A stretch of DNA of 64,000 nucleotides from Desulfovibrio sp. MES5 (GTDB taxonomy: Bacteria > Desulfobacterota > Desulfovibrionia > Desulfovibrionales > Desulfovibrionaceae). Positions within the stretch are counted from its first letter, which is position 1, and each line of letters starts with the position of its first letter. The notes under the pieces are model-generated. The model was not told where the DNA came from. It made no database searches and saw nothing but the letters and a program-made list of their open reading frames with translations. The stretch covers positions 1-64,000 of the forward strand of contig NZ_MJUZ01000005.1 of NCBI RefSeq assembly GCF_002237645.1, written 5' to 3'. Shown here piece after piece: positions 1-36,744 of the stretch. The position numbers and the translations under genes are program-made.

Positions 1-807
1 GTTTTCGCGGCTGGTGTGAAATCAAAATGGCGCAATAAAGAAATAGGTCTTGCTGCAACTTCACTTACAGCGTCAGAGGTAAACTCTGAAGAAGTGACTT
101 TTTTGCGTCTTATGCAAGACTATTGCATTTATACTCCAAACACTGACACCTTACGCGGACTATCACCAGACTCAATCCGAGGTGCCATTGGCATTCATGG
201 CGGCGGACTTGCAGAATCACTTGAAAAACTATTGAACAGCAAAAGTGAATCAGTATACCGTGATGAAGCATTTAAAGCAATTGACTGGATTGACGATGTA
301 ACAATACAGAAGTCTGCCAGCATGTTGTTATCACCATCGGTGACTCGACAACAAAAAGTCATTGTCTTTCAAGATAAATTCATGAATGCCTCGCGTAATA
401 AACTGACAGCCTATGATGCTAGCGAAGGGGCCCTATATATTTTACTTGCATTTATTCTTGCGCGTTCACCAGATACATTACCACTCTTTGCAGTGGATAA
501 CTTTGATCAAGCACTTAATCCTAAACTAACAGAGCGTATGATGAGGCTTTTTTGTCGGTGGATGCTATGTGAGGCAACAAAGCCGCGCCAAGCACTGCTG
601 ACTGTGCATAATCCTGCCGCACTTGATGGTTTGCCCATAAATGATGACAGAATACGACTTTTTGCTGTAGACAGAGATAGTACAGGAGTTACACGCGTTA
701 GCAGACAAAGAATAACTACTGAGCTGCAGCAATTGGCGAATCAGCATGGCTGGCCATTATCGCGCCTTTGGGTCATGGGACACCTGGGGGGTATCCCCAA
801 TGACTGA
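1..807 (+). CDS. AAA15/OLD-like ATPase, 3' part (cut by window edge)
   Basis: The frame is open to the first base, so the true start and the Walker A motif lie upstream. The visible part carries the C-terminal half of an ABC-type/OLD-family nucleotide-binding domain: an S-E-G signature-like stretch (SEGALYILLAF), a Walker-B-like segment (LPLFAVDNFDQALNP) with Asn where a catalytic Glu is usual, and an H-switch-like TVHNP. ATPases of this kind act in defence or DNA repair with a nuclease partner. The stop overlaps the start of the TOPRIM-type gene by 8 bases, so the two are probably translationally coupled. Base composition is AT-rich compared with the core. The defence role is inferred from the pairing; the ATPase call rests on motifs. 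Confidence 0.7.
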   Translation, partial: VFAAGVKSKWRNKEIGLAATSLTASEVNSEEVTFLRLMQDYCIYTPNTDTLRGLSPDSIRGAIGIHGGGLAESLEKLLNSKSESVYRDEAFKAIDWIDDVTIQKSASMLLSPSVTRQQKVIVFQDKFMNASRNKLTAYDASEGALYILLAFILARSPDTLPLFAVDNFDQALNPKLTERMMRLFCRWMLCEATKPRQALLTVHNPAALDGLPINDDRIRLFAVDRDSTGVTRVSRQRITTELQQLANQHGWPLSRLWVMGHLGGIPND

Positions 808-1489
808 AGCTGTGCGCATTGGTGTTGTGGCCGAAGGGCCAACAGACCTTATTGCTTTACAAGCCGTGATCAAGGCAATACTCAAAGACCAACCTTTCAT
901 AATTACTCCTCTGCGACCTCAAAGAGTAGAAACAGTTCTGGGCGGCACGACTGATGCTTCACAACCGATATACGCGCAAAAAGGCTGGTCAGGTGTTCAT
1001 AACTGGTGTCAGGAAGTATCTACAGTTCCTCAAGGGGAGAACCTCATCATGCACCAGGTAGTGGTAATACATCTGGATGTTGATGTTGCAGGCTTTACCT
1101 ATGCCAGTGCCAACATAACACAATTACCTACATACTCAGATCTCCCTTGCGAGAAGCCTTGCCCGCCAGCTAGTGATTCAGCTGATGCCTTAATTGATGT
1201 TGCCAAAAGCTGGCTTCTCCCTGTTGTTCCGCAGCCCAATTGGCTTTGGTGTTGCCCTGGGTATAACATGGAAACATGGGCATACACTGCATATAAACCC
1301 CAAAAGGCCTGTATAAAAAGCAAACTTGAATGTTCACGAGACATTGCTGGACGAGTAACAAAAACTGAAAAAGCTTATAAAGAAAAGTACGCCAACATGC
1401 TGGAATCACGTTGGACAGAAGTACAAAGACTCTGCTCTCTCGCACAACAATTTACTGATGATTTATGCACATGCCTTGCTGCGATATGA
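800..1489 (+). CDS. TOPRIM/DUF4276-like protein, partner of the upstream ATPase
   Basis: The ATG at 800 follows a G-rich stretch and overlaps the ATPase stop; an earlier in-frame start at 746 would overlap too deeply. The 229-residue product begins with VRIGVVAEGPTD, the EGPTD form of TOPRIM motif 1 (catalytic Glu), followed around residue 95 by HLDVDVAG, the DxD motif. This combination is typical of DUF4276 and other OLD-type TOPRIM nucleases. ATPase plus TOPRIM pairs occur in anti-phage systems such as PARIS (AriA/AriB), AbiL and OLD-like systems. The family assignment is by motif; which system this is cannot be settled because the ATPase N-terminus is missing. Confidence 0.65.
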   Translation: MTEAVRIGVVAEGPTDLIALQAVIKAILKDQPFIITPLRPQRVETVLGGTTDASQPIYAQKGWSGVHNWCQEVSTVPQGENLIMHQVVVIHLDVDVAGFTYASANITQLPTYSDLPCEKPCPPASDSADALIDVAKSWLLPVVPQPNWLWCCPGYNMETWAYTAYKPQKACIKSKLECSRDIAGRVTKTEKAYKEKYANMLESRWTEVQRLCSLAQQFTDDLCTCLAAI

Positions 1490-1882
1490 CCTATTCAAAC
1501 AGCTTGAAGCAATATCAAAGATCTCTGCTGCCGGTAGATGCTAACATTCTGAAATACTTTAAACGAAAAAAATGCGCCTTAACATACTTATTTGAATCGT
1601 ATGGGCACAAGGCATATTCCGAGTGTTCCCATGCCTAACCGCGCATTGCTTTACAAAAAAACGTGCAAAAATGTGCGACACAAAGCTTGAGTACGCATCG
1701 TTTGGCAGAAATTGAGAACGCCTATTTTACCCGCTGACGTTGCGGATGTTATTCATGCAGTTTTAAAAATATATTATATCATTAAGAGGATCGAAACTAC
1801 GTTTCAAATCACTCCTGAAAGCCCTGTCCAGCACTAAGCTGGGTGGGGCTTTGTCATTTTGCTATAGAAGGAGGTGGCTTGC
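1490..1882. other. AT-rich intergenic region between defence-like pair and phage-like cassette
   Basis: About 390 bases without a convincing gene. The only ORF of note, at 1631, is 19 codons long without a ribosome binding site. The right half is very AT-rich (about 1755-1785) and could hold a promoter, but I see no clean -35/-10 pair. A terminator-like hairpin at 1818-1852 closes the region. Confidence 0.5.
1818..1852 (+). terminator. Hairpin in the leader of the ERF gene
   Basis: Stem AAAGCCC / GGGCTTT extended by CCAGC / GCTGG around an ACTA loop, followed by GTCATTTT. It ends only 30 nt before the ERF start codon, so it lies inside the mRNA leader unless a promoter is squeezed in between. 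It may act as a terminator, an attenuator or an antitermination target. Confidence 0.5.
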
Positions 1883-2584
1883 ATGAACCAATATCAATCA
1901 GAAAACATTACCGATTTGGCAAAGGCCCTTCTCAACGTGCAGCGAACCGTGCAGCCTGCTACAAAAGACGCTGAGAATCCCTTCACCAAGAGCTGGTACG
2001 CCAGTCTCAACAGCGTCATGGATGCCTGCCGTGATGCTCTCATTAAAAATGGTATCTGGCTCTGCCAGTACCCGGTGCCTGTGGAGCAGCCTAGTTCATT
2101 AGGGCTGGTTACCAAGCTGACCCACGCAGAGTCTGGCCAGTGGCAAAGCTCCCTTGCGGTAGTTCCTTTGCCCAAGGCCGATCCGCAGGGCATGGGATCG
2201 GCAATGACTTACGCTCGCCGCTACGCTTTAACCGCCATGTTGGGCATGGTAACTGAAGATGACGATGGTGAAGGGGCTAAAAATGGCAAAAAATCATCCA
2301 CACGTTCCAAACTGCCCGTAAACGCCCCCGAATCGCAAAAATCGCGTCAACGCGAATCATCCACCACAAACATCATTTCAGCCCCCTCAAATCGACCGCC
2401 AGCAAGCCTTGAAAATCTCCCTCCGCTGGAAGGCGTCACCTACCAGCAAGTTACAGCCCAGGACGGACGTCCTTGCATCATTGCCACCGGCAACACGCAG
2501 GCCAAAAAAGAATTACTTACCGGTTCGGGCTTCCGTTGGAACCCGCAGAGAAAATTGTGGTGGAAGTATGTTGATGCCGCATAA
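1883..2584 (+). CDS. ERF-family single-strand annealing protein
   Basis: 233 residues from the ATG at 1883, which has a near-perfect AGAAGGAGGTGG ribosome binding site 6-7 nt upstream. Residues 99-129 (KADPQGMGSAMTYARRYAL, then LGMVTEDDDG) carry the ERF superfamily signature. ERF proteins anneal complementary single strands during phage recombination, usually with a partner exonuclease. A low-complexity Ser/Lys/Pro linker (about 130-180) leads to a small C-terminal module (about 186-233, GFRWNPQRKLWWKY) that recurs at the ends of phage DNA-handling proteins. The next gene encodes a RecB/Cas4-like nuclease, which fits an annealase-nuclease recombination pair. The ERF call is firm; the role in a phage-like element is inferred from context. 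Confidence 0.85.
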   Translation: MNQYQSENITDLAKALLNVQRTVQPATKDAENPFTKSWYASLNSVMDACRDALIKNGIWLCQYPVPVEQPSSLGLVTKLTHAESGQWQSSLAVVPLPKADPQGMGSAMTYARRYALTAMLGMVTEDDDGEGAKNGKKSSTRSKLPVNAPESQKSRQRESSTTNIISAPSNRPPASLENLPPLEGVTYQQVTAQDGRPCIIATGNTQAKKELLTGSGFRWNPQRKLWWKYVDAA

Positions 2585-2602
2585 CAAAAATCAAAATACC
2601 GA

Positions 2603-2638
2603 GTGAAAGGGCTGCCTAATGGCGGCCCTTTCGCTTTT
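2603..2638 (+). terminator. Rho-independent terminator between ERF and nuclease genes
   Basis: Stem GAAAGGGC / GCCCTTTC extended by GCC / GGC around TAAT, followed by GCTTTTAT. It lies 19 bases after the ERF stop and about 15-20 bases before the nuclease start codon, so it sits in the nuclease leader. It is the second of three such hairpins in the cassette. Confidence 0.65.
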
Positions 2639-2652
2639 ATGGAGGCTAGATC

Positions 2653-3816
2653 ATGGAGCAGATGAACCGCACGGAAGGATTACGGGCTCTAATCAGGCAA
2701 GGCCTGCAGGCCGTTGCCCACAACGACACACTTGCACACCTAGGCGACCGCTCCTGCTATGTGGGGATGAGCGACATCGGCCAGCACTGGGAATGCCCAC
2801 GGGCTGCACTGGCTAGAAAAGTGCTGCCCACCACAAACAGCCTGGAGCGCCTGCTTACGCTGCAGCGAGGGCACTGGTTTGAATCTGGGGTTGGGCAGGC
2901 ACTGACATCGTTGGGCCTGCATATTTTGCCCCAGCTTGAGATCAACTGGCAGCATCAGGGCGTGCCCATCAAAGCTCATCTTGATTTTGTGCTGGTCTGG
3001 GGTGCGCCTGTTAATGCCATACGCATTCTGGAAGTGAAGAGTACGGACAAGTTACCAACTTCGCCTCACGATTCCCATCTGCTGCAACTGCACGGGCAAA
3101 TCGGCCTTTTGGTAAAAGCATGGAACAAGCCCGTCTTCAGCCTCCGTGCTGAGGACGGTACGCTGCTGCATGAGAAGATGACCTTCCCTCAACTTTGCCG
3201 TGCCCAGCTTGGTCTTGAGATGCCCTCAACTGCTGCCAAGACAAGCATAGAAGCATGGTTGCTCTGCCTTTCCATGAAAGAGGTTAAAGCGTTCGGCCCC
3301 TATGGCTTCAATCAGGCCATGCTGGATACTGCCCTTGACCATGCGGCACAACTTTGGGGCGAACTTGCAGATTTCCGCGCCGGGCACATAACCCTGGCAC
3401 AGGCGGATTGCGCTCAGGGCTTTTACCCGTTGTGCTCGTACTGCGAACACAACGGTGACTGCCCCAAATTCCCGCAGGGCGTGCAAATGCCCCAATGGGA
3501 ACCAGCACTGGAAAAGCTGGCTGCCCTCAAGGAGCAGCGCACCGCTTTAGATAGCGAAATAAAAGAGATGGAAACTGTGCTCAAGCTTGTTCACCGTCAG
3601 GCTGGCACACGGGATTGGGTAGACACGGGAAATTACCGATTCCGTATGTCAGTGGCAGCAGGCCGGACCACTTTGGACAAGGATGCTCTGCGGGAGGAGT
3701 TGACCGAGATTTTTCATGCGGAGCATCTGGGCGACACCGACGTGGATACCTTGCTGGCCCGCTGTGAGCGTACGGGCTCACCTTTTGAAAAATTGAGCAT
3801 TTCGCCCATAAACTGA
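2653..3816 (+). CDS. PD-(D/E)XK (Cas4/RecB-like) nuclease with predicted Fe-S cluster
   Basis: 387 residues from the ATG at 2653 (GGAGG 8-12 nt upstream). The nuclease core shows E77 (HWFESGV), D111 (HLDFVL) and E127-V-K129 (ILEVKST), in the order expected for the PD-(D/E)XK fold, followed by a Gln-rich LLQLHGQIG helix like the Q-x-x-x-Y motif of RecB/Cas4 nucleases. Four cysteines are placed as in Cas4 and AddB: C48 (WECPR) plus C261, C264 and C270 (CSYC, then DCPKF), so a 4Fe-4S cluster is likely. A C-terminal coiled-coil stretch (about 275-330) and an unrecognised tail follow. Next to an ERF annealase it most likely supplies the exonuclease for strand resection. There is no CRISPR array, so this is not a CRISPR-associated Cas4. 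Confidence 0.8.
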   Translation: MEQMNRTEGLRALIRQGLQAVAHNDTLAHLGDRSCYVGMSDIGQHWECPRAALARKVLPTTNSLERLLTLQRGHWFESGVGQALTSLGLHILPQLEINWQHQGVPIKAHLDFVLVWGAPVNAIRILEVKSTDKLPTSPHDSHLLQLHGQIGLLVKAWNKPVFSLRAEDGTLLHEKMTFPQLCRAQLGLEMPSTAAKTSIEAWLLCLSMKEVKAFGPYGFNQAMLDTALDHAAQLWGELADFRAGHITLAQADCAQGFYPLCSYCEHNGDCPKFPQGVQMPQWEPALEKLAALKEQRTALDSEIKEMETVLKLVHRQAGTRDWVDTGNYRFRMSVAAGRTTLDKDALREELTEIFHAEHLGDTDVDTLLARCERTGSPFEKLSISPIN

Positions 3817-3832
3817 ACTTCGGGAGATCTAC

Positions 3833-4195
3833 ATGGGATATTATTCTAACGTGGCCCTGTGCCTGACAAAAAATGGCATGGATCAGTTAAAAACAGCTCT
3901 TGCAGAGGCAGAAAAGAACAATCCCGGCAACTTTGCAGCAATCAAAATGCTCATCGGTGGCGAGCCTAGCAAAATCGATGAAGGCTCAGGCTCCGTTGTC
4001 TTTCTGTGGGAGGGGGAAAGGTGGTATGATGAATTTGATGAAATCGCCTTTGTTGGCGAGTTCATGGACAATTTGCCCCACGAAGACTTCCTGTTCATCC
4101 GTATTGGCGAAGATTATGACGACATTGAAACTCGCGGTAGTTATCAGTGCAATCCGCAGCGGGTACGAATTACCCGGGAAATTGCAGCGGACTGA
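3833..4195 (+). CDS. Conserved-looking small acidic protein of unknown function
   Basis: 120 residues, starting 17 nt after the nuclease stop with GGGAGA as ribosome binding site. The protein opens with MGYYSNVALCL and is acidic, with aromatic-rich segments (WEGERWYDEFDEIAFVGEF) and a C-terminal IRIGEDYDDIETRG. I do not recognise the family, but small proteins beginning MGYYS occur in phage and plasmid accessory regions. The position suggests an accessory recombination or host-takeover factor; this is inference from context only. Confidence 0.55.
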   Translation: MGYYSNVALCLTKNGMDQLKTALAEAEKNNPGNFAAIKMLIGGEPSKIDEGSGSVVFLWEGERWYDEFDEIAFVGEFMDNLPHEDFLFIRIGEDYDDIETRGSYQCNPQRVRITREIAAD

Positions 4196-4201
4196 TCCTT
4201 A

Positions 4202-4230
4202 TTGACTAATGTCAAATTTGATGTCATAAA
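4202..4230 (+). promoter_or_regulatory. Sigma-70-type promoter of the toxin-antitoxin pair
   Basis: TTGACT (4202-4207), a 17-nt spacer and CATAAA (4225-4230). A CAAATTTG palindrome lies inside the spacer and repeated TGTCA motifs flank it, as expected for an operator bound by the antitoxin. The promoter stands 33 nt upstream of the antitoxin start. Confidence 0.5.
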
Positions 4231-4262
4231 AGATATCTAATTTATCCAACTTGGAGGATTTC

Positions 4263-4508
4263 ATGGATTCCATACACTCCAATATCACCGTTAGCGTCAC
4301 AGAACTCAAACGGAACTTTGCTAATGTCCTGGCAACTGCCAAGGATGCGCCGGTGGCAGTTTTGAACCATAACAAGCCAGAGGCCTACCTGTTGTCCGCA
4401 AAGCACTACGAAGAAATCCTCGGAATTCTCGAAGATCTTGAAGACAAAAAGATTGTTGAAAAGCGCGAAGATGGCCCTTTTGTTAAGGTAACGCTTGATG
4501 AGCTATAG
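4263..4508 (+). CDS. Antitoxin, Phd/YefM (RelB/StbD-like) family
   Basis: 81 residues from the ATG at 4263, preceded by GGAGG at 4253-4257. The N-terminal half (NITVSVTELKRNFANVLATA, then APVAVLNHNKPEAYLLSAKHYEEI) is the Phd/YefM DNA-binding fold with its typical R-x-N, V-x-x-x-N-x-x-P-x-A-Y and S-x-x-x-Y-E pattern. The acidic and basic tail (LEDLEDKKIVEKRED) would wrap the toxin. The stop overlaps the toxin start by 11 nt, giving the usual antitoxin-first coupled order. A promoter with an internal palindrome lies just upstream, consistent with autoregulation. Confidence 0.85.
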   Translation: MDSIHSNITVSVTELKRNFANVLATAKDAPVAVLNHNKPEAYLLSAKHYEEILGILEDLEDKKIVEKREDGPFVKVTLDEL

Positions 4509-4794
4509 TCTGCAGTTTCATGAGCTAGCACTGAAAGAATGGAAAAAGCTTGATGCCAGCATCAGAGAGCAGTTTAAAAATAAACTGGCAGAACGGTTAC
4601 AGCAGCCGAAAGTTCCTTCATCTGCCCTGTCTGGCATGCGTGATTGTTACAAGATCAAATTGCGCTCCATTGGGTATCGCCTTGTGTACAAGGTCAATGA
4701 TGACATTCTCTTTGTAACGGTCATCTCCATTGGCAAGCGTGAACGCCTAGAGGCATATCGACAAGCCCTACGACGTATGCCCTCTGAAGAATAG
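4498..4794 (+). CDS. RelE/StbE-family toxin
   Basis: 98 residues from the ATG at 4498, inside the end of the antitoxin gene. The sequence follows the RelE/StbE plan: LQFHELALKEWKKLD at the N-terminus, then a basic helix, SALSGMRDCYKIKLRSIGYRLVYKV and a C-terminal ILFVTVISIGKRERLEAYRQA. Family members cleave mRNA on the ribosome; the conserved basic residues (K, R in KIKLRSIGYRL and GKRER) are present, so the toxin looks intact. With the upstream antitoxin it forms a type II addiction module, a common stabiliser of mobile elements. Confidence 0.85.
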   Translation: MSYSLQFHELALKEWKKLDASIREQFKNKLAERLQQPKVPSSALSGMRDCYKIKLRSIGYRLVYKVNDDILFVTVISIGKRERLEAYRQALRRMPSEE

Positions 4795-4853
4795 TACCAT
4801 AAGGAGAACACTGCTTCCTGATAGGCAATTGTCAGCAGTGCAACGGAGGCATT

Positions 4854-5054
4854 ATGCCACTTAGCCTTGAAGAGCTGGTTGCAACTGCCATTGAAAATCA
4901 GCATGTTATTCTTGAATTTGAGCTTAAAAAAGGCATTCCGTTGAACTATCTGGATGAAAAAGGGCAATACACCCTGCGTTACCTTGATGGTCATACGGAA
5001 GCCGTCTCGCTGCCTGAGGCCGTAGAAGTTCTCCAGTCAGACAATTCCGTATAA
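4854..5054 (+). CDS. Small protein of unknown function
   Basis: 66 residues, with GGAGG 4-8 nt before the ATG. The protein is acidic (LSLEELVATAIENQHVILEF at the start) with a short beta-rich middle (GQYTLRYLDGHTEAVSL). No known motif is recognised. It lies alone between the toxin gene and a strong terminator-like hairpin. Its ribosome binding site and cassette-like codon use support a real gene. Confidence 0.5.
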   Translation: MPLSLEELVATAIENQHVILEFELKKGIPLNYLDEKGQYTLRYLDGHTEAVSLPEAVEVLQSDNSV

Positions 5055-5098
5055 TTCACAAAAAACTATCCTAGCTAGACTGATACCATATTTCGAAG

Positions 5099-5131
5099 AG
5101 CCCGGTTCCCTTAAAAGGAGCCGGGCTTTTT
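5099..5131 (+). terminator. Strong terminator hairpin in the leader of the AAA+ gene
   Basis: Stem AGCCCGG / CCGGGCT with an inner TTCC / GGA pairing, followed by TTTTTCTG. It ends 23 nt before the AAA+ start codon, leaving no room for a promoter in between. Transcription of the AAA+ gene must therefore read through it. Confidence 0.75.
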
Positions 5132-5153
5132 CTGCATCTAAGGAGTAGCAATT

Positions 5154-6488
5154 ATGAACACAAATGTGATCGAAGAACTTAGTTACCTGAAACCCGCCGA
5201 CCTTGATGCCGGGCAGGTTTTCAGCGGCAAACCATCCGGCACCACGGTAAAAGGATACGCCGTTCCTTCGGCCTACACCCCGGCCATTGACCACGACTAT
5301 ATTTTCCATGAGTCCAGCCGTGATGTTGTGGTCTGGTTTCTCAACCTACAGGAACCACTGTACGTCTTCGGCCCCACAGGATGCGGTAAAACGACATGCA
5401 TCAAACAGCTGGCTGCCAGACTTAACTATCCAGTCTTTGAGGTCACCGGACATGGGCGGCTGGAGTTTGCCGACCTGGTTGGTCACCTGAGCGTCAAGGA
5501 CGGCAACATGGCCTTTGAATACGGCCCGCTTGCGCTTGCCATGCGCTACGGGGCGATAATTTTGCTGAACGAAATCGACTTAACCTCGCCAGAAATAGCA
5601 GCAGGCCTGAATAGCGTACTTGACGGCTCCCCCCTGTGCATAGGGGAAAATGGCGGCGAACTGATTGTGCCGCACCCCATGTTCCGTCTGGTTGCCACGG
5701 CCAATACCAATGGCGGTGGCGATGACACCGGCCTCTACCAGGGAACCCAGCGGCAGAACCTTGCATGGCTGGACCGCTTCACCATCTGCGAAGTGTGCTA
5801 TCCATCTGCCGATGTGGAAAAAAGCCTGCTTGCCCGGCGCTTCCCTTCGCTGCCCCAATCGCTGTGCGCCACCATGGTGGACTATGCCAATGAGGTCCGC
5901 AAGCTGTTCATGGGCGAGGCTTCCACCAGCAATCTGACCAACGCCATTGAAGTTACATTCTCCACTCGCAGTTTGTTGCGATGGGGTGATCTGACCGTTC
6001 GCTTTCAGCCTCTGGCCCATCAAGGCGTGCAACCTATAACCTACGCCCTTGACCGGGCTCTGGCCTACCGTGCAAGCCGTGAAACCCGCGCCATGCTGCA
6101 CGAGCTGGCTCAGCGTATGTTCCCGCAGCAGATGGAAGGTGAGTCCCCCCAAACCGTAACGGCAGAAATTGAAATCCTGCAAGGCGAGCAAGCCCTACGC
6201 TTCATGCGCGGCCATCTGCACCACACACCCACGGTGGCCAAGCCCCTCGTCCATCTTCAGGTAGTCCACAACCTTTCTGGCAAAAAGCAGGACGGCAAGT
6301 TCTGGATCGGCGAGGCTAGCCCTGTGGGCCTCACGCTAAAGTGGGGCAAGCCGGACACCGTTGGCCAGCAGCACTTTATTCCCGCCGAAAACTGTGAGGG
6401 CAACAATTCCGTGATGGAGCTTGAAGCACGCGCAGAAAAGAAAATCAAAGAAGGCTACTCCCTCAATACAACAAGAAGCTCATTCTAG
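5154..6488 (+). CDS. MoxR/CbbQ-like AAA+ ATPase with C-terminal WGR-like domain
   Basis: 444 residues, with AAGGAG 9-14 nt before the ATG. The AAA+ core has Walker A GPTGCGKT at 73-80, a Walker-B-like IILLNEID at 135-142 where Asn replaces the usual Asp, sensor-1 ATANT at 181-185 and an arginine-finger candidate R208 (LDRF). This is the MoxR/CbbQ/CobS type, which remodels or inserts cofactors into a partner carrying a VWA domain. Residues about 365-436 resemble a WGR domain (LKWGKPDTVGQQ, then EKKIKEGY), a module otherwise known for binding nucleic acid ends in PARP-type proteins. The DUF3150 and VWA genes follow directly (9-nt and 4-nt gaps). The ATPase-VWA partnership is established for the family; the WGR call is from pattern only. 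Confidence 0.8.
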   Translation: MNTNVIEELSYLKPADLDAGQVFSGKPSGTTVKGYAVPSAYTPAIDHDYIFHESSRDVVVWFLNLQEPLYVFGPTGCGKTTCIKQLAARLNYPVFEVTGHGRLEFADLVGHLSVKDGNMAFEYGPLALAMRYGAIILLNEIDLTSPEIAAGLNSVLDGSPLCIGENGGELIVPHPMFRLVATANTNGGGDDTGLYQGTQRQNLAWLDRFTICEVCYPSADVEKSLLARRFPSLPQSLCATMVDYANEVRKLFMGEASTSNLTNAIEVTFSTRSLLRWGDLTVRFQPLAHQGVQPITYALDRALAYRASRETRAMLHELAQRMFPQQMEGESPQTVTAEIEILQGEQALRFMRGHLHHTPTVAKPLVHLQVVHNLSGKKQDGKFWIGEASPVGLTLKWGKPDTVGQQHFIPAENCEGNNSVMELEARAEKKIKEGYSLNTTRSSF

Positions 6489-6497
6489 GAGGCTACT

Positions 6498-7535
6498 ATG
6501 GCACAACTTGTTTCTGACATCCGTATTCTTGATAACTTGCTGGCCCTCAATCTCAACGTCAGCTTGTGGTCAGCCCGACGCAAAATGAGTCAGGAAGACC
6601 TGGGCGGCGCAGAACTGCCCCCTGAAGATCTGGCTTCTTTGGGCTCAAAGCGCATTGCCGACCCGGAAAACCTCAAGGTGTTCGGCACACTCAAAGCCCG
6701 CGCCTTCAACTACCTTGACCGGCAAGGTGTACGGTTTATGTCCGGCTGGGCCATCCCCGAAGAAAAGGCCGGCGAAATCGTGCAGGAGCTGCTTAACATC
6801 CGCACTGAATTCCAGAAAGAAAAGGAAGCATTTCTGGCTGACTATGACCAAAATGTGCAGGCATGGATTGAGAAGCACCATCAGTGGGGCGAAATCATTC
6901 GTAACTCCCTTGTGGGGCCTGAATATGTCCGCGCCCGCATGGATTTCCGCTGGCAGTTGTACAAGGTGGCTCCGCTTGAGCAGCACACAGACAACACCGC
7001 TGTGCTGGAAGCCGGGCTGGCGGAAGAGGTGCAGGGCCTCGGCGGCACACTGTTTGATGAGGTGGCCAAGTCGGCTGACGATATCTGGCGCAGGGTTTAT
7101 CACGGCAAGACGGAGGTAACCCACAAGGCGCTCTCACCGCTGCGCACCCTGCATGCCAAGCTCACTGGCTTGTCTTTCGTAGAGCCGCATGTGGCCCCGG
7201 TGGCTGACATCGTGCAGGCAGCCCTGCTGCGCATGCCCAAGAAGGGCAACATCACGGGTACAGACCTGCTGCTTTTGCAAGGGCTGGTCTGCCTGCTCAA
7301 GGACAGTACGACTCTTGTGGGCCACGCTCAGAAAGTAATTGAGGGCTACGGCCCGGCATTTGTGCTGGATGCCCTGTTGGCTGGTCCGGGTGTTATCCAC
7401 GAACCGGACGGCCCTGCTGGACAGATGGATGGCACCGTGGACGGGAATATGGATGATGAGCCCATTCTGCCTGATATTCCTGTGGCTGACAGCGCGTTAC
7501 CGCATCCTGCCATACCCAGCCTTGGTCTGTGGTGA
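6498..7535 (+). CDS. DUF3150-type protein
   Basis: 345 residues, with GGAGG 7-11 nt before the ATG. The pattern LDNLLALNLNVSLWSARRKM near the start, followed by FNYLDRQGVRFMSGWAIPEE and a long helical middle, matches what I know of DUF3150, a family found between MoxR-like ATPase and VWA genes in phages and integrative elements. Its biochemical role is unknown. The protein is largely alpha-helical with an acidic C-terminal tail. Its fixed position in the ATPase-DUF3150-VWA trio suggests a structural adaptor or substrate of the chaperone pair; that is inference. Confidence 0.65.
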   Translation: MAQLVSDIRILDNLLALNLNVSLWSARRKMSQEDLGGAELPPEDLASLGSKRIADPENLKVFGTLKARAFNYLDRQGVRFMSGWAIPEEKAGEIVQELLNIRTEFQKEKEAFLADYDQNVQAWIEKHHQWGEIIRNSLVGPEYVRARMDFRWQLYKVAPLEQHTDNTAVLEAGLAEEVQGLGGTLFDEVAKSADDIWRRVYHGKTEVTHKALSPLRTLHAKLTGLSFVEPHVAPVADIVQAALLRMPKKGNITGTDLLLLQGLVCLLKDSTTLVGHAQKVIEGYGPAFVLDALLAGPGVIHEPDGPAGQMDGTVDGNMDDEPILPDIPVADSALPHPAIPSLGLW

Positions 7536-7539
7536 CGCC

Positions 7540-9165
7540 ATGATACGCACAAAAGACGTTCTCAACTGTCTGCCCCTGCTGGCTTCTATCCTTGGCGACC
7601 GCTATGGAGTGCAGGTTCGTATCGGCGGCAAGGAGGCCTGCACCAACGGTAAGGTTATTCACTTGCCCGCGTTGCCTATGGATTGTGAGCCTGAATTACT
7701 GGCACTGGCTAAGGGTTTCACAGACCATGAGGCTGCCCATATTCGGCACACTGATTTTGGGGTGTTGAAAGCTGCAAACCTTGATTCTGTGACCTTCAAC
7801 CTGTTCAACTGCCTTGAGGACTGGCGCGTTGAAAAGAAGCTGTCGGGTATTTTCCCCGGCTGCCGGAGAAACCTGAACTGGCTCATACGACGATTCTTTA
7901 CAGAGCAAGCACAGCCAAGGGCCGGGGACGATTCCCCGGCCCTTGCTGTTTTGGACTATGTGCTGTTGACGGTACGGGCGTGGGATGTGGATGAAGTTAC
8001 CCCGGCACGCCAAAACGCGGCAAGCATCATGGCGCAGCATTTTCCCGGATTGAAAGATGCCCTGGATGCCATCTTGGTCAAGGTTTACATCCATTGTCCG
8101 GATACTGCGGCAGCAGTCGAATATGCTCGACAAATTGCCATATGCGTCAGGCAGTGGGAACCGCCTAGACAGGCTCCAACCAGCAAGAGCGCTAACGATC
8201 ACGGTTCTATGACTAAGGCGAAACTGGAGGTCAACGATTCTGCTAAACAAATTGGCCAGCGATCTGAGCCGGGTCAACCGCAAAGTGCGTTGAGCTCGTT
8301 ACCGCTCAAGGCTCTTTTGCATGCGGAGGCGCAGGATCTGCCTCAGAACATCGGCGAAATTCTGGCGATTGAGCTTACCAGTTGCAGCTCAGAATCAACC
8401 GGAGACGCGCTGACCGTTGGGGTAGAAGGCACCCGACAAGCCGCCCCCTTGCCAGCAGAGCAGAAGCTGCAAGCGTTACAGGCCAGCATTGCGCTACGTA
8501 CACGCCTTCAGGGTTTCCTGCAGGCGCAAACGCAAAGGCGATGCAGCATTGGGCGCAAGGGCACACTGCACGCCAATTCGCTACATCGGCTGCAGGTTGG
8601 CAATTCTCGTGTTTTCCAAAAAGAGTCTGTGCAACTGGGCCTCAATACGGCTGTTCATATCCTGCTGGACGTAAGCGGCAGCATGGCTGGCGCACCGATT
8701 AATCTTGCCAATCGAGCCTGCTTTGCCGTGGCAACTGCGCTGAGCCATATTCGTGGCGTGAATCCAGCGGTTACGGCTTTCCCCGCTACGACGGTCACAA
8801 ACTCTGTATTCCCCATCATGCGGCATGGGCACACGGTGCCAGATCTGTTCGACATTCGGGCTTCTGGAGGGACGCCCTTGGCTGGAGCTTTGTGGTGGGT
8901 TTTGCAAACCATGCTGCCTCTTAAAGAGCAACGCAAGATGATCCTGATTATTACTGACGGCATGCCGGACAACCCGTTGGCCGCAAACAATGCCATAGGG
9001 GTGGCCCAACAACTCGGCTTTGAAGTTTATGGCCTTGGCATCAGAGATGAGCACATCACGCACCTGCTGCCGCACTCCAGCCGGGTGGTCAACGACTTGC
9101 CCGACCTGGTGCCTGCCATGTTTGCCATGCTGCAGGCGGCATTGTTTAAAGGCGGTGCTGCATGA
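7540..9165 (+). CDS. CobT-like VWA-domain protein with HExxH motif
   Basis: 541 residues from the ATG at 7540, four bases after the DUF3150 stop; a longer in-frame extension would overlap that gene and is not used. Near the N-terminus is H63-E-A-A-H67 followed by LFNCLEDWRVEKK, a zinc-metalloprotease-like pattern also seen in CobT-type phage proteins. The C-terminal VWA domain has a complete MIDAS: DVSGS at 377-381, T445 (SGGTPL) and D473 (ITDG). A variable linker (about 205-300) joins the two. With the MoxR-like ATPase it forms the familiar chaperone pair that remodels a target in a metal-dependent way. No cobalt-chelatase context exists here, so cobalamin synthesis is unlikely. The real target is unknown. 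Confidence 0.75.
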   Translation: MIRTKDVLNCLPLLASILGDRYGVQVRIGGKEACTNGKVIHLPALPMDCEPELLALAKGFTDHEAAHIRHTDFGVLKAANLDSVTFNLFNCLEDWRVEKKLSGIFPGCRRNLNWLIRRFFTEQAQPRAGDDSPALAVLDYVLLTVRAWDVDEVTPARQNAASIMAQHFPGLKDALDAILVKVYIHCPDTAAAVEYARQIAICVRQWEPPRQAPTSKSANDHGSMTKAKLEVNDSAKQIGQRSEPGQPQSALSSLPLKALLHAEAQDLPQNIGEILAIELTSCSSESTGDALTVGVEGTRQAAPLPAEQKLQALQASIALRTRLQGFLQAQTQRRCSIGRKGTLHANSLHRLQVGNSRVFQKESVQLGLNTAVHILLDVSGSMAGAPINLANRACFAVATALSHIRGVNPAVTAFPATTVTNSVFPIMRHGHTVPDLFDIRASGGTPLAGALWWVLQTMLPLKEQRKMILIITDGMPDNPLAANNAIGVAQQLGFEVYGLGIRDEHITHLLPHSSRVVNDLPDLVPAMFAMLQAALFKGGAA

Positions 9166-9254
9166 TGGTGCCGCTTGATTTCAGACAATTGCGCCGAACG
9201 GCAATATTTCGTTTCTTCTTACTTAACAAAAAGCGGCGCATCCAGCGCTGCTAA
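9162..9254 (+). CDS. Possible 30-residue peptide coupled to the VWA gene
   Basis: An ATGA overlap with the VWA stop opens a 30-codon frame encoding a basic, partly hydrophobic peptide (MMVPLDFRQLRRTAIF, then RFFLLNKKRRIQRC). The overlap would allow translational coupling, but there is no other support and the frame could be chance. Confidence 0.25.
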   Translation: MMVPLDFRQLRRTAIFRFFLLNKKRRIQRC

Positions 9255-10029: not shown

Positions 10030-10106
10030 TGGTGCGCCCGGCGAGATTCGAACTCACGGCCTTTGGCTCCGGAGGCCAACGCTCTATCCGGCTGAGCTAC
10101 GGGCGC
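10030..10106 (-). tRNA. tRNA-Arg (anticodon CCG)
   Basis: 77 nt with encoded 3' CCA. The acceptor stem GCGCCCG pairs with CGGGCGC. The D arm begins TAGCTCAGCC, the seven-base anticodon loop is CTCCGGA (anticodon CCG, reading CGG), and the T arm contains GTTCGAATC. The 3' end points towards the accessory island on its left, so this gene is a candidate integration site for it. Confidence 0.95.
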
Positions 10107-10147: not shown

Positions 10148-10594
10148 GGCCGCCCACGTACAAGGAGACTGTGGTCCAGTGGAAGACTCCGCGCGTTCAG
10201 GGCAGAAGCTTGCTGGGGGGTAGGGGACGGCAGAAGCAGGAAGGCCCGCCCGCCAGCGGCAGAACCACGCCTCTGCCAAGACTGGCCGCGAGATATTGGA
10301 GGCCCAGTGCGCCAGTGGGCAAAAGAGGACTGCGGGAGGCATGTAGTGGAAGGCATGTAGCGGGAGGCGTGTAAATGAGTTGGTCAGAGGGGCTCCGCGC
10401 ATCTTGCGCTGAAGCGCTCAGGCTCGTGTCAGGGCCAGTTCTCATACGAGCCCCGCGCGTCCAGGGCAGGAAACCCCACGAGGCAAAATTGGGCAGCGCA
10501 CCGCTGTTTGCATGGCGTTTCTTTGTCGGGTATGGATGACCAAGGAACTGGCGGGCCTCACCGGCTGCGCTGGCAGTTATTACGGAGACTCACC
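10148..10594. other. Intergenic region with no recognised gene
   Basis: About 450 GC-rich bases between the tRNA-Arg promoter and ubiX. Several frames are open on both strands, but none has a ribosome binding site or a recognisable product. I see no repeat or tRNA here. The ubiX promoter presumably lies in the right half. Confidence 0.4.
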
Positions 10595-29716: not shown

Positions 29717-31317
29717 CTACTTGGGCTGGTCGCTCTGACCAGCCTGGCCGCCTTGCGAGGTCAGGCGGTCCTGGCCTTCCCACACCTGTTCAGCCTTGGG
29801 CAGCACGGGCAGCAGCTTGGTCCAGGGATTCTTCTGCAAGAATTCCTGGTCCTGCTGGAGCTTGCGGCTCATGGTCAGGATGGGCGGCACAATATCCTTG
29901 ATGTCGCCGGCCAGGGCCGGGGCGATGCCGAATTCCGTGGCCTGGGTGGCCAGGTCAACGGCCTTCTGGCTGCATTCCATACTGGTCATGAGGGTGTCGA
30001 GGGATTTTGCCGGGTTATGGAAGCCCACGCTGTTTTCAGCAGAGACGTAGTCCCAGAACAACTGGCCCTTGCGCACCATTTCGCGCGCTTCAGTCATGAG
30101 GACTTCGTAGTTGGGGGCGCGGTGGCCGTCATAGGCATTGGCAAGGCGCACGGCCTCATGGGCCTTGACGGATATTTCCTGTGCCTTGAGCAACTGTTCG
30201 TAGGTCTTCTTCTGGGTGTACAGCACACGCCCACGCAGGTACTCGGCGGTCTTGTCGGCGTGGCACTGGCGGCAGGCGCGCATTTCGGGATCCTTCATGG
30301 GCGAGGTCATCCAGTGGCTCGATATCTTCTTGCCGTCTTCACGCACGTACTGCATGTGGCAGTCGGCGCAGGCAACGCCGGCAGCGCCGTGGGGACCGTC
30401 CTGGAAGGTTTCGTAATCGGGGTGCTGCATCTTGATCATGGGCACCTTGGAAGCAGCGTGCACCCAGTCAGCAAAGGGGCCGGGCTTGCCGTCCGCGCCC
30501 TTGGCGCCGTGGCCCTTGTAGTACTGATACATGTCTTCGGGGTTCATGCCGTTATCCCAGGGGAAGACGGGCTTGGCGGCCGGGCCGTTGTCCTTGTGGG
30601 TAAAGTAGTACTCCACATGGCACTGGGCGCAGACGAGCATGCGCTTTTCGTTGCGGCTTATCTTCTGCCAATCCCTGCCGCTGCGCTTGAGCCAATCCTT
30701 GAGGGGCTCGGAATACAGGCGCAGTTCCATAGTGCCGGGATCGTGGCAGGTGCGCAGCTTATGCTTTCTTCATGGGCGTTGATCTTGTCCTTGCCGCGGA
30801 AGTCGTTGACGTCCATAGACCAGAACTTGTCGCCATACTGGCCGACCCACTCCATCATCTTGGGAGTTTTGCAGTTCCAGCAGGTGGCGGGCAGGTTGCC
30901 CTTGCCGTCAGCGCCGAAACGGTTGATGCGGTCAATGTTCACAAAGTCGTCAATGGCGTGGGTATGGCCGCGCGTTTCATTGTATTCATACATGAACGGG
31001 TAGCCAAGCCAGAGGTTTTTCAGGTAGGGCTGGGCATGTTTGAATCCCTTGGGCAGGGGGTTCACATTGTCATTCTTGTGATAGGGAACCGACCCTTTAT
31101 AATCGGTCATGACCGTGTCTTCGTTATTTTTCATATACGAAGCGTACTGCTGCGGAAACTGGCCCTTGAAGGCCGACATTTTGAGTTCGGTTTCAGGGAT
31201 GCCCGTTTTATATTTGGGGGCCTTCAGCTCGGTGGAAACATCCTGACAGCCGCTGAGCAAAGCAACGCCCAGCAGCGTGGCCAGAGCCAGGGCCGTGGTC
31301 ACAATTCGCTTATTCAT
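29717..31317 (-). pseudogene. nrfA: Cytochrome c nitrite reductase NrfA, broken by a one-base deletion
   Basis: NrfA reduces nitrite to ammonium in the periplasm with five c-type hemes. The first part (31317 down to about 30750) has a lipoprotein-like signal (LLSGC) and the catalytic heme site CWNCK. The frame then shifts at about 30748-30755, where the second heme site should read C-A-x-C-H; adding one base restores CAxCH-DPGTMELRLYSEP. The second part, read from 30730, holds CAQCH, CADCH and CRQCH and the full C-terminus. As written, the first frame ends at 30658 with one heme, and the second lacks a signal peptide, so no working enzyme results. The start overlaps the end of nrfH by 8 nt. 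A real mutation or a sequencing error are both possible. Confidence 0.9.
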
Positions 31318-31777
31318 AGGCTACCGTCCTTGTGCTGATAGGCCGCATGCGCATGTGGGTGACGCCCCGGTGACAATCCACGCAGTAAGGCTTGGCGTCC
31401 ATGCTGGCCACGTTGATGTTGGTTTGGGCATGGCACGCCTTGCAGTTGGCGTTGACCACATCACGAGTATGCAGACTTGGGGGATGCGGAACATCGTGCC
31501 CCGTGATGTTGCCCACTACGTCGCGCAGCCCTTCTTTTGCCTTGAACGGCAGTTTGACCAAAAGATTGTGCGGGGCATGGCAGTCATTGCATGAGAGCTT
31601 GGCGTGCGCACCCATTTTCTGGGTAACGGCAGCTTCCTGCATGATATGACAGCTGGCGCAGAACGGCCGCTGGTCCGTGGTCGTCATGGCGTACGCCAGA
31701 ACTCCCAGTAGCACCATGCCCGCCGCAACGCCGCCCAACAGCCATTTGAGCCAGGGTCCATTGCGGGGTGTACCCAT
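31310..31777 (-). CDS. nrfH: NrfH, membrane tetraheme quinol dehydrogenase of nitrite reductase
   Basis: 155 residues from the ATG at 31777 (AAGGAGG upstream). One N-terminal membrane anchor (WLLGGVAAGMVLLGVLAYAM, about 12-31) is followed by a periplasmic domain with four heme c sites: CASCH, CNDCH, CKACH and CVDCH. NrfH of the NapC/NirT family takes electrons from menaquinol and passes them to NrfA. The gene is intact and overlaps the start of nrfA by 8 nt, giving the nrfHA operon order known in Desulfovibrio. Confidence 0.95.
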   Translation of the reverse strand: MGTPRNGPWLKWLLGGVAAGMVLLGVLAYAMTTTDQRPFCASCHIMQEAAVTQKMGAHAKLSCNDCHAPHNLLVKLPFKAKEGLRDVVGNITGHDVPHPPSLHTRDVVNANCKACHAQTNINVASMDAKPYCVDCHRGVTHMRMRPISTRTVAYE

Positions 31778-31907
31778 AGAGCCTCCTTCACTCGCTCCTA
31801 GTGCAGATGCGCCCTGAAAACTCAGATTTCCAGGGCGGGGGTATCGCCCACTGGCAGGCTTGGCAGCCTGCGTAGTCATGAGCGCTGACAACCGCTGAAG
31901 CAGAGTA

Positions 31908-32309: not shown

Positions 32310-35269
32310 ATGGCGCACGTTGTCTCAAAAAAAAATGGTCCGGCCATCTGGCTGCCCCTACTTGCCTGTTTTTTCTGGCTTGTTTTCACCCTCGCGCTCT
32401 ACCGTCAGGCCGCGCGCGTTGATGAAGCCCACAGGCTTGAACTGGAGCATACCAGATTATCCACGGTTGCGCGACAGCTTATGGACGCGCGTAACTGGAA
32501 TGCGGCCCACGGCGGCGTCTATGTGCTGAAAAGCGCATACGGGCAGGCCAATCCCTGGTTGCCCGAAGCCGAACGGACTGTGGACACTGCGGACGGGCGC
32601 ACTCTCGTGCTCATGAATCCCGCCTATATGAGCCGCCAACTGGCTGAACGCAATTCAGAACCGGGCATTGGCATCAGCATCATCAGCAATGTGCCCCTGC
32701 GGCCGGAAAACAAGGCCGATGCCTGGGAGTCCGATGCCCTTGGGCAGTGTACCGAAGGGGCGCAGGAAATCTTCAGCGCTCCGGAAACGGACGGGCAGGG
32801 TAAACTGCGCCTGCTCAGCGTGCTTGTGGCGCAGGAAAGCTGCCTGCGCTGCCACCTGGGCCGCACGGTGGGCGAGGTGCTCGGCGGCATCAGCGTCAGC
32901 CAGAACGCCGAGGCCTATATGCACAATGCGGGTCTGCAGCAGCGCAACATGCGCCTGCTCTATTCGCTGCTGGGCCTGACGGGCGTGCTTGCCATCGGCG
33001 GGCTTACGCTCAATCTCACGCGGCGGCGCTGGCTGGCCGAAGAAACCAGCCGCATGAAGAGCGCCTTTATGGCGCGTCTGAGCCACGACATGCGCACCCC
33101 GCTGACGGCCATACTGGGCATGAGCGAACTTTTGCAGCAAAAGGCCATGCCGGAAAAGGAACGCAGAAGCGCCCTGCGGTATCTGACGCAGGCAGGCAGC
33201 GCCCTGCTGGAAATGGTGCGCGACGTCACCGACCACGCAAGCCTTGAACAGGGCGCGCTGCAACTGCGCGCTGATCCCTTTTCATTGCGCGCGGCCCTTG
33301 AAGGCTGCACCGTCCTGTTCCGGCCAGTGGCCGAGGCCAAGGGGCTGGATATTGATCTGGACGTGGACCCGCAACTGCCGGACGCCGTGGTGGGCGACAG
33401 TTTTCGCTTGCGTCAGGCCCTGGGCAACCTTGTGAGCAATGCGGTGAAATTTACCGAGCTTGGCCGGGTGCGCATCTGCGTGGGGCCCACCGGGCGAAAG
33501 TCGGGGGGCGCACCGTTTGGCCCGGCTGATTCCCTGTGCCTCAGAATTCTGGTGCAGGATACAGGGCCGGGCCTGCCCGTCGAAGACGCCGAGCGCATCT
33601 TTGAAAGCTTCCAGCGGGGTAGCGACGCGTCGTCGGCTCCCGGCACGGGGCTTGGGCTGTATATCGCGCGCACCATTGCCCGCCGTATGGGCGGGGATGT
33701 GACGGTGACCTCAGCGCCGGGCAGGGGATCCTGCTTTGCTCTTGAGGTATGCCTGCAACTGCCCGGCTGCACTGACGAAAAAAAGAGCGGCAAAAGGCAT
33801 GACAGTCAGGCCGCCGCAGCGTCGCCGTACGGAGCTGGCGCTGCGCCGGAAGCCGGGCAATGCACGGTAGCCGGAGCCGTCGGAGCGGCCATGCCGCCGT
33901 GTTTGCCTGGGCTTTGCACAGAGCCGGAATCGTCCGCCGGGTCTGAGTCGCCCGCAGCGGCTGCGCTTTCCACAAAATTTGAGTCGCCAGCCTTGACTGC
34001 GCCGCGTTCCGCTCCGTGTTCCGGCTCTGCGCCATGCTCCGCGTCGCTCCCCACGCCGTCCCCAATCCGGCCCTGCGCCGCAGAATGCGTGCTGCCCGAC
34101 GCTGGCGCAGGCGCTGCCACGGATCCGCTGCGGATGCGGGCAGCGGGGCCGATCTCCCTTCAGAAAACGGCTGTTTTGCGGGCCGCCGCATTCTTGTGGC
34201 CGAAGACAATGAGGCCAACAGGTATATTATGGAACACATGCTGCGGGCTGAGGGCGCGTGCGTGCGTATGGCGCGCGACGGCAAGGCCGCTCTGGCCGCC
34301 CTTGGTCAGGGGCCGTGGGATCTGGCTATTCTTGACGCGCGTATGCCCGACATGAGCGGGCTTGATGTGTTGCAGGCCGTGCGCCTCGGCCATGCCGACG
34401 TTCCGGCGCGGCAAAAAACCGTCATTTACACCGCCGCCCTTGACGAGGAAGACAGGCGGCGCTGCAAGGAGCTGGGGGCTGATCTCGTTTTGCTCAAACC
34501 CCTGACCTTTGCCGTGCTGCGCAAGGAACTGGCCTCCCTGCTGACGGCTGAAGATTCAAGGCGCGCCCCTGCTGGCGCTGCTCCGCCGTCTGGCGGGCTG
34601 GCTGCGGGCAAGGTCTGCGTTGGCGAGAAATTCGCTGTTGCGGCGTCCACTGTTCATGCCTGCGCGTCTGCCCCGGAGGAAAGCCCCACCGTGCCAGCCC
34701 CGCGCTGCATGCCCGAATCTTCTGGCCAGTCTGAATTTTTTGGCCAGGCCGAATCTACAGCCCGCCCCGCTTCACAGGGCCTCGAAGCAGGGTTTGGGGG
34801 CGACCCCGGCACGCACGGGGAGGAGGCGCTGGCGCTCTGGAACAGGCCAGCAGCCATGGACGCGCTGGATCACGACCTCCAGTTGCTGACGCAGCTGGCT
34901 GGGGTATTGCGGGGGGATTTGCGCACCCGTGACGCGGAACTGGAAGCGGCTTTGGCCGCAGGCGATGATGTCTGCCTGCGGCGTCTGGGGCATGCCGTCA
35001 AGAACTCCGCCGGAACCATGCGTTTTGACGCGCTGCGCGAGCGGGCCTGCCATGTGGAGAAAGCGCAAAAGGCCGATCTTGGGCAGGCCGTGACCCGGAT
35101 GCGCGCCGCTCTGCGGGAGGCTCTGGATATGCTGGATAAAGAGCTGGACAAGGAACTGGGCAAAGATATGGACAGCGTGGACGCCATGCCGGGCAAAACA
35201 TTTCTGCCGGACCCGGCGGCGGGCATCGTGGCAGGCACGGCCCAGGCGGGCTGCAAGGGAGGCTGCTGA
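32310..35269 (+). pseudogene. Hybrid sensor kinase with c-heme sensor domain, apparently frameshifted
   Basis: The start at 32310 gives an N-terminal membrane helix and a periplasmic Tll0287-like (DUF3365) domain with a heme c site (SCLRCH). A second helix and a histidine kinase core follow: H-box RLSHDMRTPLTAILG, N-box VSNAVKF, G boxes DTGPGLP and GTGLGLYIA. The frame then runs through an Ala/Pro-rich linker and ends at 34355 in nonsense. A receiver domain (RRILVAEDNEANRY, LDARMPDMSGLDV, LLKPL) and an HPt domain (GHAVKNSAGTM) are in another frame, up to 35269. One deleted base between about 33770 and 34180 explains this. The following response regulator overlaps the stop by one base. It probably senses nitrite or its products for the nrf operon (inference). 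Confidence 0.8.
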
Positions 35270-36744
35270 TGGCCCGTGTTCTCGTGGTGGATGACGAGGC
35301 GCTCATGCGCACCATGGTCGAGGTGGTGTGCACGCGCATGGGGCACGAAGTGCTGCTGGCGGAGAACCTCAGTCAGGGGCTGGAGATGGGCCGTCAGGGC
35401 GTGGACGTCGTGCTTCTTGACGTCTGGCTGCCCGACGGCAGCGGCCTTGAGTGGCAGGGCGACTTTGCCCACCTGCCCGGCGTGCCCGATGTCGTCATCA
35501 TTACTGGGCACGGCGACGGCGACGCTGCCGAGGTTGCCCTGCGCTCTGGCGCCTGGGAGTTTCTGACCAAACCCTTGAAGGTGCGCGATATTGAGCAGTG
35601 TTTGCGCCATGTGCTGACCTGCCGCACAAACAGAGTTCCGGGGCCGGAATCCCTGCTGGTGGACAGCGGCCATATTCTGGGGGCGGGCGCGGGCATGAGC
35701 CGCGCCCTGAAACTTCTGGCCCAGGCCGCGCAGAGCGAGGTCAATGTTCTTTTGCTGGGCGAAACCGGGGTAGGCAAGGAAGTTTTTGCCAAGGCCCTGT
35801 ACCGCAACAGCGCGAGGGCCGCGCGCCCTTTTGTGACGGTGGACTGCGCCTCGCTGCCTGAAACCCTGGTGGAGAGCCATCTTTTCGGACACAGCCGTGG
35901 CGCGTTCACCGGGGCGGACAGGGCGCGGGAAGGGCTTTTGCTGGCGGCCAACAAGGGCACGCTTTTTCTTGATGAGGTGGGCGACCTGCCACAGGCCATG
36001 CAGGGCGCTTTTTTGCGCGCCCTTGAACTCAAGCGGTTCAGGCCCGTGGGTGAAGTACGCGAGGTCAGCAGCGACTTTCGCCTTGTGGCCGCCACCAATA
36101 AAAACATCGAAATCATGGCCAGGGATGGGACCTTTCGCTCTGACCTGCTGTTCCGCCTTCAGGGGCTCACCATCGTCATTCCGCCCCTGCGCGAGAGAAG
36201 GGACGAGATTCCCGCGCTGGCCCAGCAGACCGTCAGCCGCTTCTGCCTGCACAATGAGTTGCCCGGCAAGGCTATTTCCGGGCAAATGCTTGACATACTT
36301 ATGGAATATTCCTGGCCCGGCAATGTGCGCGAGTTGATCCACTGCATAGAGCGCGCCTGTCTGGCCGCCGGGCAGGGCGACCTGCTCCTGCCTGTGCATA
36401 TGCCCACCCGTATGCGCGTGGACGAGGCGCGCCGCCGCATGGGCCGGGGGCAGGAAGGCGGCTTTGCCGAAGCTGCCGCCAGCATTGCCGCACAACCCGC
36501 TGCCAGCGGATTTCACGCTTCCAGCGTTCCTTCAGGCGGCGCTGCGTGCGCATCTGCCGGTCTGCCGCCGCTTTCCGGCCCGGAAGAGGGCCTGCCAGCG
36601 CTGCGCCAGTGGAAGGCTCAGGCCGAAGAAGCCTATGTGCGCCGCGTATGGGCCGTCACCGGCGGCGACGTGCGCAAGGCTGCGTCGCTGGCTGGCATAT
36701 CGCGCGGGCACTGGTATGAGCTTATGAAGAAGTGCGGCCTGTAA
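35269..36744 (+). CDS. Sigma-54-dependent response regulator, NrfR-like
   Basis: 491 residues starting at an ATG that overlaps the kinase stop (TGATG). The receiver domain (1-120) has VDDE, the phospho-acceptor Asp in VVLLDVWLPDGSG, and the conserved T and K (ITGHGDG, LTKPL). The AAA+ domain has Walker A GETGVGKE, the sigma-54 contact motif GAFTGA, Walker B GTLFLDEV and NVRELIHC. A Fis-type helix-turn-helix ends the protein (GGDVRKAASLAGISRGHWYE). In D. vulgaris a regulator in the corresponding position next to nrfHA (NrfR) activates nitrite reductase under nitrite stress; the same role is likely here. The gene is intact, unlike its kinase and target. Confidence 0.88.
   Translation: MARVLVVDDEALMRTMVEVVCTRMGHEVLLAENLSQGLEMGRQGVDVVLLDVWLPDGSGLEWQGDFAHLPGVPDVVIITGHGDGDAAEVALRSGAWEFLTKPLKVRDIEQCLRHVLTCRTNRVPGPESLLVDSGHILGAGAGMSRALKLLAQAAQSEVNVLLLGETGVGKEVFAKALYRNSARAARPFVTVDCASLPETLVESHLFGHSRGAFTGADRAREGLLLAANKGTLFLDEVGDLPQAMQGAFLRALELKRFRPVGEVREVSSDFRLVAATNKNIEIMARDGTFRSDLLFRLQGLTIVIPPLRERRDEIPALAQQTVSRFCLHNELPGKAISGQMLDILMEYSWPGNVRELIHCIERACLAAGQGDLLLPVHMPTRMRVDEARRRMGRGQEGGFAEAAASIAAQPAASGFHASSVPSGGAACASAGLPPLSGPEEGLPALRQWKAQAEEAYVRRVWAVTGGDVRKAASLAGISRGHWYELMKKCGL

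Follow-up and report, generated by a model that had tools for sequence, protein, structure and literature searches.

A probable recent null mutation of nrfA in Desulfovibrio sp. MES5 within a proposed repeated inactivation of the nitrite module in one clade

The gene nrfA of Desulfovibrio sp. MES5, coding for a pentaheme cytochrome c nitrite reductase, is divided between two reading frames, and comparison with related genomes leads us to regard this break as probably a real and recent null mutation, forming part of a pattern in which the nitrite module has been inactivated repeatedly in one clade. Recent gene inactivation is an ordinary event of a known kind, and the interest lies in its having recurred in the same module within a single clade. 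NrfHA shields sulfate reducers from nitrite, which serves as a means of controlling sulfide production and also occurs in the inflamed gut. Should sister species lose both the reductase and the sensor time and again but keep nitrate reductase, nitrite would be released rather than ammonium, and it would be wrong to call such strains nitrite reducers by gene content alone. Additionally, with repeated recent breaks it can be tested directly whether the nitrite module is selected against in cultivation.

The window analysed here is a stretch of 64,000 nucleotides (contig NZ_MJUZ01000005.1, positions 1 to 64,000), in which all positions are given unless stated otherwise. The nrf locus lies on this contig (C5) of a draft assembly of 3.47 Mb in 52 contigs, estimated to be 100% complete.

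The nrfA gene and its lesion

On the minus strand, two overlapping open reading frames (ORFs) in different frames, 30658-31317 (219 aa) and 29717-30730 (337 aa), jointly span NrfA. The Pfam profile PF02335 identifies the family along the whole protein, over two frames rather than a continuous one, as profile positions 4-129 are found in the 219-aa ORF and positions 137-401 in the 337-aa ORF. The original prediction, that nrfA is whole but lies in two overlapping frames, is thus borne out. A profile search of the complete 3.47 Mb genome recovered no second gene with PF02335, which rules out an intact copy elsewhere in it. The features of the gene are the following.

29717..31317, minus strand: nrfA, pentaheme cytochrome c nitrite reductase, in two frames (a pseudogene as read); PF02335 across both frames, single genomic copy
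30868..30882, minus strand: CxxCK of the active-site heme (heme 1), intact, within the upstream fragment (from the sequence)
30743..30756, minus strand: second heme motif, 14 nt instead of 15, with the frame break at ~30752 (from the alignment with relatives)
30617..30631, minus strand: third heme motif (CxxCH), intact (from the sequence)
30356..30370, minus strand: fourth heme motif (CxxCH), intact (from the sequence)
30260..30274, minus strand: fifth heme motif (CxxCH), intact (from the sequence)

Instead of one CxxCK and four CxxCH motifs, nrfA of MES5 therefore has four of the five intact, the second having been lost to the frame break. When the gene was aligned with related genomes by blastn, a single gap was observed at ~30752, within the second heme motif, where every listed relative has one base more (L013 was left out at this position). 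The gap is unique to MES5 in this comparison, and a break common to the relatives was consequently rejected. It had been predicted that one base was missing at about 30748-30755, exactly inside a heme motif, with loss of the second CxxCH, a shifted frame and four other heme sites left intact; the alignment and the remaining motifs agree with each of these points, and the comparison with the nrfA of relatives that had been proposed as a check gave the result described above.

The predicted product would keep ~190 native residues and, of the hemes, only heme 1. In NrfA, electrons are relayed to the active site by hemes 2 and 3 (PMC12285233), and no working enzyme would therefore be expected from the pieces; the truncated protein should be unable to reduce nitrite. 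That the break falls inside a heme motif adds little functionally, as the enzyme would be destroyed by a loss of frame at nearly any point of nrfA.

Neighbouring genes

The genes surrounding nrfA are presented in the following list.

31310..31780, minus strand: nrfH, open, encoding the tetraheme membrane protein that donates electrons to NrfA (PF03264, and TIGR03153 under the cut-off of that model)
32313..34355, plus strand: nrfS, 5′ part with Tll0287-like sensor, HisKA and HATPase domains (Pfam), out of frame past the linker (tblastn frame change relative to relatives)
34110..34140, plus strand: nrfS frame break, in the kinase-receiver linker, with a net change that is not a multiple of three (from linker residues matching those of relatives)
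34130..35269, plus strand: nrfS, 3′ part with receiver and Hpt domains (PF00072, PF01627), in the other frame
35269..36744, plus strand: nrfR, sigma-54-dependent response regulator, open (PF00072, PF00158)

As had been predicted, nrfH is unbroken, and it is also open in every relative that possesses it; in MES5, NrfH would be left without its partner. A second lesion, absent from the original prediction, was found in the sensor kinase gene that is divergent from nrfH, which is also frame-broken at ~34.12 kb (near 34124). In Desulfovibrio, NrfS-NrfR is a nitrite-responsive regulator encoded divergently from nrfHA (PMC5701242). The divergent kinase and the sigma-54 regulator of MES5 match this arrangement and have been named by their position and domains. 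The kinase gene has the expected position, divergent from nrfHA and followed by the sigma-54 response regulator, but its sensor, HisKA, HATPase, receiver and Hpt domains are not in one frame as they are in relatives. Residues of the sister genomes are matched by the first frame until ~34120 and by the second from ~34130; as the length of this linker differs among species, the one certain point about the lesion is that its net change is not a multiple of three.

Nitrite sensing through NrfS would be lost or crippled in MES5. This loss is less certain than in G057, one of its sister genomes, because the MES5 break affects a linker and the receiver and Hpt domains might be translated on their own. 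By comparison, nrfR is open in MES5 and also in G057, G058, G010 and G008.

Breaks in related genomes

MES5, G057 and G058 are each other's closest relatives in this region, with 90-93% nucleotide identity among them, against 82-83% to G010 and G008. In G057, both nrfA and nrfS are broken, at positions unlike those in MES5, while in G058, which is a single closed contig, nrfS is broken and nrfA is open. Thus, nrfS is broken at three different places in these genomes. It is open in ~17 other genomes of the genus, counting those where the gene is whole, and fragmentary, on two contig ends, in G046. The gene nrfA is present in most of the 79 genomes of the genus and is split between frames in MES5, G057 and G001, at positions that differ from genome to genome. 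As the positions differ, the breaks must be considered independent. No split nrfA was seen among ~80 nrfA genes sampled from other genera of the family, nor were frame splits seen in the control gene aprA in ~70 genomes. In the open-access literature, we found no report of a Desulfovibrio nrfA or nrfS with a broken frame.

Two further genomes of the genus can be mentioned here. In the more distant G001 (L113), nrfA carries a separate break of one base towards its end, near locus position 10235, and nrfS is open. In G014, which has a genome of 1.6 Mb, matches to nrfA occur in pieces on two contigs (L115, L116), one of them with an in-frame stop, due to either decay or a fragmented assembly.

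For the syntenic region, taking the genes that could be set against two or more relatives, MES5, G057 and G058 have five clear breaks between them, and every one of these is in nrfA or nrfS; the two genes account for 7% of the compared bases. The chance of such a concentration is ~3e-5 when the break that drew notice is left out, or ~1e-4 when one more short break of G057 is counted. If background breaks arise at one per 100 kb, at least four would be expected with a Poisson probability of ~1e-5.

Age of the breaks

Among MES5, G057 and G058, the dN/dS of nrfA is 0.06-0.08, versus 0.14 for pooled background genes. The sensor and kinase domains of nrfS have values of 0.05-0.14, similar to those between intact relatives. 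Values are higher for nrfH (0.27-0.28) in both pairs involving MES5, where they derive from few changes. As dN/dS in the broken genes is low up to the tips, the breaks would be very recent on each tip, after long selection, and a long-standing nrfA pseudogene was rejected for this reason.

Assembly error and other explanations

The original prediction had left two options, a recent loss or an assembly error. The former is favoured by the adjacent nrfS break, the breaks of the sister genomes, the low dN/dS described above and the absence of other clear breaks unique to MES5 in the coding DNA compared; the latter, in which a base was dropped and nrfA (perhaps also nrfS) is intact in the living strain, is less likely, and we consider it rather improbable. 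Some observations do speak for an error: the assembly is a draft, the lesion consists of a single base, and the absence of relaxation in dN/dS is what would be expected of a gene that still works. If the assembly were at fault, however, similar breaks should be scattered in unrelated genes. Conserved proteins of relatives were compared with ~227 kb of orthologous MES5 coding sequence on five contigs, a screen that is insensitive in divergent linkers, and no clear break unique to MES5 was found besides those in nrfA and nrfS. An assembly slip is therefore unlikely, and a generally error-prone assembly was rejected. Most of the other flagged breaks were dismissed, being differences in start codon, ORFs on the antisense strand or short ORFs of low reliability; a case on contig C2 was common to G057. 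Moreover, an error would have to account for two breaks in adjacent, functionally linked genes, and for sister genomes, one of them closed, that are broken in the same genes at other places. Finally, there is no homopolymer in the sequence around ~30752, and a homopolymer slip was consequently discarded as the cause of the nrfA break.

The immediate sequence context deserves separate consideration. Four of the five nrfA and nrfS breaks of MES5, G057 and G058 lie within 10 nt of the hexamer TGCCAC, which in three of them corresponds to the Cys-His codons of a heme motif. In a permutation that allowed for the choice of word, this proximity had a P of 0.001-0.02 for words of six bases, varying with window size, and of up to 0.09 for other word lengths, the association being post hoc in all cases. 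Such proximity could hint at a local error or at a mutation hotspot, and it has to be counted among the points in favour of an assembly error. However, most of the TGCCAC sites elsewhere in the contig were not seen broken, and TGCCAC was rejected as a general error motif.

In a second explanation, the nrfA break would be a single neutral accident of MES5 and the breaks of its sister genomes coincidental. Pseudogenes are common in bacterial genomes, and isolated one-base breaks form a background in the relatives (two in G010, one in G057 and one in G001), but an accident of this kind would leave the clustering of breaks in this gene pair over three sister genomes to a chance of ~1e-4 to 3e-5, and we give it little credit. 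As for the background itself, the two frame breaks of G010 are found on its contig C4, at ~246904 and 273198 (L195, L196), in conserved genes compared with MES5 and G057 that encode proteins of 1039 aa and 181 aa in relatives.

It is also conceivable, but very hard to credit, that nrf genes carry a mutational hotspot at the CxxCH codons (TGCCAC), with loss of frame at a high rate and perhaps its reversal, as in a contingency locus. The permutation result for 6-base words would agree with it, but there is no repeat tract able to slip at the break sites, the other ~40 TGCCAC sites of the contig were not seen broken, and neither the G001 nrfA break nor the G057 nrfS break fits. The related idea that such a hotspot acts on nrfA and nrfS as a fast on/off switch, with strains alternating between nitrite-reducing and nitrite-releasing states, is only marginally less doubtful.

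A proposed course of the inactivation

Returning to a real and recent loss, we propose that, in a clade of three sister species, nrfS would have been frame-broken independently in each species and nrfA in two, while nrfH and nrfR stayed open and an open napA was kept. Selection would have maintained nrfA and nrfS until very recently, and their inactivation would then have followed on separate tips. Culture, or a habitat or host, without nitrite would be the likely, and the simplest, driver, as inactive mutants would be tolerated or even win under such conditions.

An open napA of 776 codons is present in MES5, G057 and G058; the gene has been named from its open frame and from partial matches along the NCBIfam napA model, which fall below the cut-off in all genomes of the genus. 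On sequence grounds, the best reading is that these strains would make nitrite and yet be unable to reduce it with NrfA. MES5 is predicted to be sensitive to nitrite and, if Nap works, to release it from nitrate.

Other features of the genome

Outside the nrf locus, the first part of the window (1-9200), followed by a tRNA-Arg at 10030, has a lower GC content (0.44-0.57). By eye, it contains recombination-like and nuclease-like ORFs, in addition to an ORF for an AAA ATPase (5154-6488) and a VWA/CobT-like one. Another MES5 contig (L144) has related ORFs, and part of this contig recurs many times in G008 and G010. The stretch resembles an integrated multi-copy element whose end lies near the tRNA. 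A search of a plasmid collection gave no match.

In L140, on MES5 contig C4, at positions ~5870-5945 and 6230-6380 of L140, there are two short sequences of ~70 and 150 bp that have dozens of copies in G057 and G010 and fewer in G008. These appear to be interspersed repeats of the REP or MITE type, the shorter of which matches on both strands. In addition, a run of very long ORFs (1602, 1424, 1149 and 787 aa) occupies positions 2853-17850 of L138, on MES5 contig C3, and, judged by eye from the N-termini, resembles a nonribosomal peptide or polyketide cluster.

Comparison with known systems

The closest known system is the NrfHA of Desulfovibrio, as described in D. vulgaris and in D. desulfuricans 27774 (Ddes_0081-0082), where the same nrfH-nrfA pair as in MES5 is found. 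The likeness extends to the pentaheme enzyme, with one CxxCK and four CxxCH motifs in relatives, and to the divergent NrfS-NrfR genes; the difference is that nrfA and nrfS are out of frame in MES5.

D. alaskensis G20 is without nrfHA and extremely sensitive to nitrite (PMC5701242), and it resembles MES5 in lacking a functional NrfA, an enzyme that the group normally possesses. By contrast, the genes are wholly absent from G20, whereas MES5 has them almost complete, broken by single recent lesions, and also has napA.

Lastly, recent pseudogenes and parallel losses are known from cultured or host-associated bacteria, and the case described here shares with them independent single lesions in one pathway and a low dN/dS up to the tip. 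It differs from them in that the comparison covers sister species rather than a series of strains, and in that the driver is a proposal.
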